Positions 6,168-6,517 of a stretch of 17,430 bases of DNA are shown here, one piece after another (position 1 is the first letter of the stretch; every line of letters begins with the position of its first letter). The translations under genes were made by a program, and so were the position numbers. Origin of the DNA: Promethearchaeota archaeon (lineage in GTDB: Archaea > Asgardarchaeota > Lokiarchaeia > Sigynarchaeales > SOKP01); NCBI GenBank assembly GCA_004524425.1, contig SDNN01000046.1:1-17430 (forward strand). The letters run 5' to 3'. A model generated the notes under the pieces. That model searched no databases. It was not told the origin of the DNA and saw only the letters and a program-made list of their open reading frames with translations.

Positions 6168-6199
6168 TTTATTTTATTAATTATTGAGGAGATAAAATA

Positions 6200-6517
6200 A
6201 TAAAAGAACAAGATATATGTCCTATTTGCGGTTTTCCAAGGGATTTATGTGTGTGTGAAAAATTGGAAGCCGAGGATCAAGAGATTTTAATATATACAGA
6301 GAGGAGAAGGTGGGGAAAAATAGTCACGGTCGTCAAATTTAAGGGTCAAATAAATATCGATCTTGATGACCTGAGTACCAAAGCAAAAAAAAAATGTGCA
6401 TCGGGAGGTACTTTTAGTGATAATACTATCGAAGTACAAGGTGACCACCGATTTAAGCTAAAAAAATTACTGATCAAACAAGGATTTGAAGAAAGTAACA
6501 TTAGAATAGCAGAATAA
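6200..6517 (+). CDS. Translation initiation factor aIF1 (SUI1 family), probable ATA start
   Basis: aIF1 binds the small ribosomal subunit near the P site and helps select the correct start codon. The archaeal N-terminal motif CPICGFPRDLCVCE is present (C7, C10, C17, C19 counting from 6200), followed by the SUI1 fold: WGKIVTVVKFKG, the basic loop KKKCASGGTFSDN, and the closing GDHRFKLKKLLIKQGF. The first standard start, GTG 6251, would remove the whole cysteine motif. Upstream of it the frame runs back to TGA 6185-6187 without ATG, GTG or TTG. AGGAG (6187-6191) precedes two ATA codons, 6197 and 6200; ATA 6200 has the better spacing, giving 105 residues, close to other archaeal aIF1 proteins. 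It is the last gene of the operon begun at 4390. Confidence 0.9.
   Translation: MKEQDICPICGFPRDLCVCEKLEAEDQEILIYTERRRWGKIVTVVKFKGQINIDLDDLSTKAKKKCASGGTFSDNTIEVQGDHRFKLKKLLIKQGFEESNIRIAE

Follow-up and report, generated by a model that had tools for sequence, protein, structure and literature searches.

Probable near-cognate start codons of the aIF1 gene in Lokiarchaeia and other Asgard archaea, and a possible role in limiting aIF1 synthesis

The aIF1 gene of the window, by which we mean the whole 17,430-nucleotide stretch of DNA analysed here, almost certainly begins at a near-cognate codon. Its relatives mark the contig as that of an Asgard archaeon (Promethearchaeota, Lokiarchaeia-like). 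The encoded protein, a member of the SUI1 family and not of the IF3 family, matches Pfam SUI1 with 64.1 bits (cut-off 25.5) and NCBIfam NF002096 with 120.2 bits (cut-off 98). Re-reading of its frame from the in-frame TGA at 6185 to the zinc-knuckle motif, whose Cys columns are invariant in a 21-row alignment (A1), revealed no ATG, GTG or TTG (Table 1). The first canonical codon is the GTG at 6251, which lies within the motif and therefore offers no credible start for the whole aIF1 protein. This bears out the original prediction, made from the letters alone, that no canonical start would be found upstream of the motif. The three ATA codons that it had proposed as candidate starts (6197, 6200 and 6215) are all present after the TGA, as is the AGGAG at 6187-6191 to which it had drawn attention, here contained in the longer stretch GAGGAGAT.

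Table 1. Features of the window discussed in the text, in window positions
Feature	Position	Strand	Remarks
Peroxiredoxin	3385..4047 (within 3379-4047)	+	ATT at 3385; AGGTGA at 3373-3378
TGA, in-frame	6185..6187	+	shuts the frame upstream of aIF1
Shine-Dalgarno-like stretch GAGGAGAT	6186..6193	+	predicted duplex with GGAUCACCUCC
ATA, alternative start	6197..6199	+	immediately upstream of ATA 6200, from which sequence alone cannot separate it
ATA, most likely start	6200..6202	+	homologous to the ATT of Lokiarchaeia, six codons ahead of the first Cys
aIF1 (SUI1 family) coding sequence	6200..6517	+	from the most likely start to the stop; Pfam and NCBIfam matches, Loki alignment
Zinc-knuckle motif CPICGFPRDLCVC	6218..6256	+	conserved archaeal aIF1 N-terminus; first Cys codon at 6218
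GTG, first in-frame canonical codon	6251..6253	+	encodes the Val of CVC within the zinc-knuckle motif
Hydantoinase-like HyuA (presumed)	8017..10101	-	ATT with first base at 10101, overlapping the stop of the upstream gene (TAATT)

To place the start codon, we rely on the close relatives. A scan of reference genomes gave 25 aIF1 loci, of which we kept 22, all titled Lokiarchaeota or Lokiarchaeia; L023/L122, with a masked N-terminus, and the bacterial L024 and L025 were left out. Nineteen of the 22 are devoid of ATG, GTG and TTG from the upstream in-frame stop to the motif, and these 19 carry ATT (ATC in one) at the codon that aligns with ATA 6200 of the window, six codons ahead of the first Cys. 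The original prediction had named canonical codons at this site in relatives as evidence against it, and 19 of the 22 named Lokiarchaeial loci do not have one. Judged from this alignment, ATA 6200 is the most likely start codon of the window gene. ATA 6215 was rejected as a start, as it aligns with an ordinary internal Ile of the relatives. In the other three loci (L001-L003) an in-frame GTG occurs within GAGGTGA, which is complementary to the 16S tail, and the homologous start position holds ATT, ATT and ATA. Because this GTG belongs to the anti-Shine-Dalgarno complement and is absent from the window, we judge it an unlikely, if possible, start for those three rows. Two metagenomic proteins, P0003 and P0018, known as protein only, have Met exactly at the homologous start position. 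The NCBI protein P0043 starts MKDDDICAIC, and its contig has 17,398 bases, like that of L018, in which the codon is ATT; public annotation of P0043 seems already to use an ATT start.

We then examined aIF1 across the phylum, where a profile search matched the protein in 201 of 227 genomes. The Asgard sample consisted of 171 loci from 166 genomes, or 172 rows with the window, and the zinc motif is present in 161 of these; the other 11, in which it is absent, masked or cut off, were dropped. A canonical codon was scored as available if any ATG, GTG or TTG occurs in the entire open stretch upstream of the motif. Even so defined, 67 of the 161 Asgard genes, the window included, lack one, while the remaining 94 have ATG (50 genes), GTG without ATG (38) or TTG only (6); since many rows are close kin, these counts do not represent independent events. 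The comparison set from genomes outside the phylum held 55 rows of archaeal-type aIF1, of which 44 retain the motif (it is lacking, masked or cut off in 11). Forty-one of the 44 have ATG and only three lack a canonical codon; these three carry ATC (L301, G231) or CTG (L300, G253; L307, G262). Among the 67 Asgard genes, most Loki-type rows have ATT as the near-cognate codon and some have ATC, ATA occurs in several groups (for example G007, G008-G010, G039/G045, G086-G088, G090-G091 and G101), and CTG is found in eight rows (G180-G183, G192, G194, G195 and G227). The idea that aIF1 has a non-AUG start is thus strongly supported and extends well beyond the window, with ATT, ATC or ATA among Loki-type rows and CTG in eight rows from other parts of the phylum.

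The canonical or non-canonical label was mapped onto a tree built from the SUI1 part of 205 proteins. It changes at least 18 times, at least seven of these changes being forced by starred branches, compared with an average of 57.3 changes for shuffled labels; the tree is built on few columns and leaves many forks open. We conclude that the non-canonical state has been inherited as well as gained or lost repeatedly. Five genomes (G001, G002, G003, G098 and G148; L001-L003, L062 and L070) have two aIF1 genes each, and the window gene clusters on the tree with the second of the two types. No relative turned up when viral contigs were scanned for aIF1.

In the window, a short Shine-Dalgarno-like stretch that may serve as a ribosome-binding site precedes the most likely start codon. 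The 22 bases upstream in the window pair with GGAUCACCUCC at a computed -7.7 kcal/mol, compared with a mean of -3.3 for shuffled sequences, and a fraction of 0.005 of the 200 shuffles reached a value as low. The 16S 3' end was read as GGATCACCTCC in G123, G007, G092 and G174, genomes other than that of the window. Over 70 rows, the duplex with the anti-Shine-Dalgarno sequence averages -6.8 against -4.65 for shuffled sequences, but only 22 of the 70 fall within the best 10% of their shuffles. Shine-Dalgarno sequences are reported to be rare in Lokiarchaea in the available text of PMC12993045. The leader is GGTTGTGA in 39 of the rows that lack a canonical start. The first 22 loci (124,832 bases) contain AAGGTTGTGA 19 times, once for each locus that has this leader, and not once on the opposite strand. 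It is nearly invariant in the 39 Loki-type aIF1 genes and, within the 22 loci searched, is found only before aIF1. It could act as a bipartite Shine-Dalgarno sequence, or else belong to a promoter or an operator close to where transcription begins. Among 33 unique rows selected for GGTTGTGA, 32 have ATT and one has ATC at the start position; elsewhere in those genes ATA accounts for 100 of 277 Ile codons. RNAalifold, applied to 37 unique rows, gave no common RNA structure around the start (energy 0).

Several readings of the window would dispense with a near-cognate start. As the sequence comes from a single contig, its ATA might be an ATG altered by an error of sequencing or assembly. The same codon is ATT, ATC or ATA in relatives from many assemblies, and because these relatives likewise lack a canonical codon (67 of 161 within Asgard against 3 of 44 outside) we consider an error highly improbable. 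Alternatively, translation might begin further downstream at a canonical codon (in the window, GTG 6251), yielding a shorter aIF1 without the zinc knuckle. Database proteins have been predicted in this way (for example P0001 with 88 amino acids and P0021 with 84), and the window would lose its first 17 codons only. However, in the set of 45 rows in which ATH is placed six codons before the Cys, 40 have no ATG, GTG or TTG within the first 40 codons and 14 have none until codon 78, such that a downstream start would deprive the protein of much or most of its SUI1 domain; the window, in which GTG 6251 follows after 17 codons and costs only the knuckle, is one of the five exceptions. A stop lies at most four codons upstream of the AUH codon in 44 of the 45 rows and five codons upstream in the window. 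The bypassed stretch is also under purifying selection, with a dN/dS of 0.19 for codons 2-21 (435 of 561 pairs usable) and 0.15 for codons 22-80 (227 of 561 pairs usable), low values that indicate an N-terminal stretch that is translated and constrained. Given that its changes are mostly synonymous and its Cys columns invariant in A1, we regard a downstream start as very unlikely. The least probable reading, which we give hardly any weight, combines a canonical start in another frame, such as the GTG in AAGGTTGTGA, with a frameshift. In the 39 rows led by GGTTGTGA, a GTG does lie 13 bases upstream of the start codon, but its frame ends at different places among the rows (compare L026 with L028). 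Inspection of the window by eye gave no open path, as TTG 6184 meets a stop after three codons and the frame of ATG 6217 comes to a stop within the gene, and a shared slip site was not seen by eye in the window and its relatives.

A near-cognate start is therefore the preferred reading for aIF1, and we asked how common such starts are in other genes. Of 14 window ORFs examined, three seem to need one: aIF1, a peroxiredoxin and a gene on the minus strand (8017-10101) that we take to be a hydantoinase-like hyuA. The conserved N-terminus of the peroxiredoxin, FPLIGDEFPEIEAISTHG, precedes the first canonical codon of its frame and is itself preceded by AGGTGA-AGAAAA-ATT. Among 30 peroxiredoxin loci read, of 99 genomes with a match, three lack a canonical codon, and these are the closest relatives (G149, G002 and G148; L415, L416 and L417). 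The HyuA N-terminus IKIAIDTGGTFTD is encoded ahead of the first ATG, at 9945. None of 28 hyuA relatives read, of 108 genomes, needs a near-cognate start; two of the 30 loci taken were partial and were dropped (L461 and L464). The overlap of the hyuA ATT with the stop of the upstream gene resembles a coupled start.

Outside the window, the gene beside aIF1A, presumably cupin-like, lacks ATG, GTG and TTG upstream of its motif in 13 of 17 rows (L152-L159, L161, L163, L165, L167 and L168). These 13 have ATT, followed by CGA in one and by AAA in the rest, as opposed to ATG in L149, L150 and L151. A further row, L162, has ATT at the site and a GTG further in. In L340 (G010) and L341 (G009), a gene that we assume to be OB-fold-like is likewise without a canonical codon; it has ATT-AGG or ATT-AAA, then AAA-CGT, and GGAGGT precedes the ATT. 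For uS8, five of 26 genes, all from Loki-type genomes, lack a canonical codon (G132, G135, G136, G145 and G147; L379, L380, L382, L383 and L386). These five are alike in sequence and read GAGGTGTAAAAA-ATA-ACA or GCA at the site of the ATG, GTG or TTG of other rows, in the arrangement stop-AAA-ATA-ACA/GCA-AAY preceded by GAGGTG. Two of 27 aIF6 genes, L180 (G181) and L182 (G101), have no ATG, GTG or TTG upstream of the domain; in L182 the ATT is preceded by GAGTGA.

The uS8 and aIF6 genes were read as controls, along with aIF1A and aIF2-beta, in 28 genomes, 27 of them picked for an aIF1 that lacks a canonical start. ATG, GTG or TTG is available for aIF6 in 25 of 27 genes, for uS8 in 21 of 26, for aIF1A in 30 of 30 and for aIF2-beta in 26 of 26. 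The last two are easier tests because approximately 21-57 codons separate stop and domain, and aIF6 and uS8 are the controls nearer in kind to aIF1. Rows dropped were two of 32 aIF1A matches (without a locus), one of 28 aIF6 loci (without the N-terminus, L200) and four of 30 uS8 matches (broken or partial, L391-L394). To obtain a background rate, we took the segment around aIF1 and aIF2-beta in ten Loki-type genomes, comprising 343 genes in 39 families, with the family start defined as the column where most members have ATG, GTG or TTG. In about eight families (FAM1, 2, 10, 14, 21, 24, 32 and 38) this column seems to be internal or unclear, and the result for them shows only that a canonical codon exists further upstream. 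Near-cognate starts are rare here: only two of 334 neighbour genes other than aIF1 have no ATG, GTG or TTG in the vicinity of the family start. Both belong to G005, and one has ATA where nine relatives have ATG. Four such rows had been flagged, and two were not counted as they have ATG four and ten codons further on. By comparison, aIF1 lacks a canonical codon in nine of nine cases in this sample, whose genomes were chosen for that. With three of 14 ORFs in the window and less than 1% in the neighbour sample, AUH starts seem to form a genuine minority class in these archaea. Earlier scans were set aside: a clustering scan for forced near-cognate starts flagged 405 of 834 and was too noisy, with antisense frames and alignments begun too early; a stricter version flagged 93 of 532 but, for several families, began the conserved block too early, and from it the families with a clear start were kept; an early version of the neighbour-gene analysis flagged 100 of 343 with the block likewise placed too early.

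What might a near-cognate start do for this particular gene? On balance, and by analogy with infC, we think it probable that Asgard aIF1 limits its own synthesis through its AUH start. In the mechanism that we propose, translation would begin at a near-cognate AUH codon preceded by a short Shine-Dalgarno-like leader, the codon being AUA in the window and AUU in most Loki-type relatives that lack a canonical start. Such a poor start would make aIF1 synthesis dependent on start-codon stringency. When aIF1 is scarce, initiation complexes would accept AUU or AUA and aIF1 would be made; when it is plentiful, complexes on AUH codons would be destabilised and aIF1 synthesis would fall. We infer for this that initiator Met-tRNA is used at AUH, that aIF1 rejects AUH in these archaea and that the feedback is complete. 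A wider circuit centred on aIF1, in which the factor limits itself through AUU, AUA or CUG and through the same codon also controls a small and variable set of other genes (peroxiredoxin, cupin, hyuA and, in some lineages, uS8), is a more speculative extension that we regard as rather doubtful. Some findings speak against self-limitation: a canonical codon is available in 94 of 161 Asgard aIF1 genes and in 41 of 44 from elsewhere, P0003 and P0018 have Met at the start position, and the anti-Shine-Dalgarno duplex ranks in the best 10% of shuffles in only 22 of 70 rows.

The main rival to self-regulation is that AUU and AUA (and CUG) serve as low-frequency starts in many genes and that aIF1 drifted to AUH because the cost is small, with no feedback involved. 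The near-cognate-only uS8, aIF6, cupin, peroxiredoxin and hyuA genes suggest that AUH may be a generally tolerated start, and with two more such genes in the window and others with AUU or AUA in Asgard genomes, the codon alone is no proof of a feedback loop. Also in favour of general tolerance are the proportion of window ORFs in need of a near-cognate start (3 of 14), the similar state of the OB-fold-like gene in some lineages and a rare ATT start that was assigned to an Asgard tubulin by its authors, according to the portion of PMC13394414 available. Against it, aIF1 is affected far more often (67 of 161, and 9 of 9 in the chosen genomes) than its neighbours (2 of 334), the Loki-type codon has been kept across wide divergence with no drift back to ATG, and aIF1A and aIF2-beta always have a canonical codon in the tested genomes, albeit over a longer stretch. 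We therefore regard drift without feedback as a serious possibility, though not the one that we favour. Self-limitation and general tolerance can both be partly true, in which case the other AUH genes may be dependants of aIF1, as sigR is of IF3.

Published work, as far as the texts were available, bears on such a loop. Sulfolobus aIF1 is reported to discriminate against non-canonical starts (PMC6237735, PMC8211752), aIF1 is described as essential in Haloferax (PMC3828320), autocontrol of IF3 through the infC loop is described in PMC5472188 and self-regulation of eIF1 is cited in PMC6237735. Archaeal starts are named as AUG, GUG and UUG in the review PMC7531240, and the available part of PMC6412873 is silent on near-cognate archaeal starts. 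Within the open-access PMC literature, in the portions available, we found no report of a near-cognate start for an archaeal aIF1 gene. The nearest published case there is the predicted ATT start of the Kariarchaeaceae tubulin atubA, an Asgard gene in which ATT is assumed upstream of the annotated start, but which is a single gene with no link to an initiation factor (PMC13394414). Bacterial infC resembles aIF1 in that it encodes an initiation fidelity factor and starts at AUH, the codon being ATT in E. coli and ATC in Streptomyces (PMC5472188), whereas the Asgard aIF1 codon varies among ATT, ATC, ATA, CTG, GTG, TTG and ATG. Eukaryotic eIF1 is a homologous SUI1 factor with the same logic of a poor start of its own (PMC6237735), but uses AUG in a poor context together with scanning. 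A model for the other AUH genes is Streptomyces sigR, a gene outside the fidelity machinery whose near-cognate start is repressed by IF3 (PMC5472188), although its codon is GTC and the factor is bacterial.

If aIF1 does limit itself, all three domains would have a start-codon guard that restrains its own synthesis by way of a poor start, each domain with its own molecular solution. No closer relatives of eukaryotes are known than the Asgard archaea, so the question bears on the origin of eukaryotic start-codon stringency. The wider circuit, if true, would be an archaeal counterpart of the control of infC and sigR, reached independently in the lineage nearest to eukaryotes. There is also a consequence for annotation, in that gene callers restricted to ATG, GTG and TTG lose the N-terminus of aIF1 and, in many rows, most of the domain. 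Other genes with AUU or AUA starts are probably missed by such callers in the same manner; in the ORF list for the window, the peroxiredoxin begins at TTG 3475, past its conserved N-terminus.
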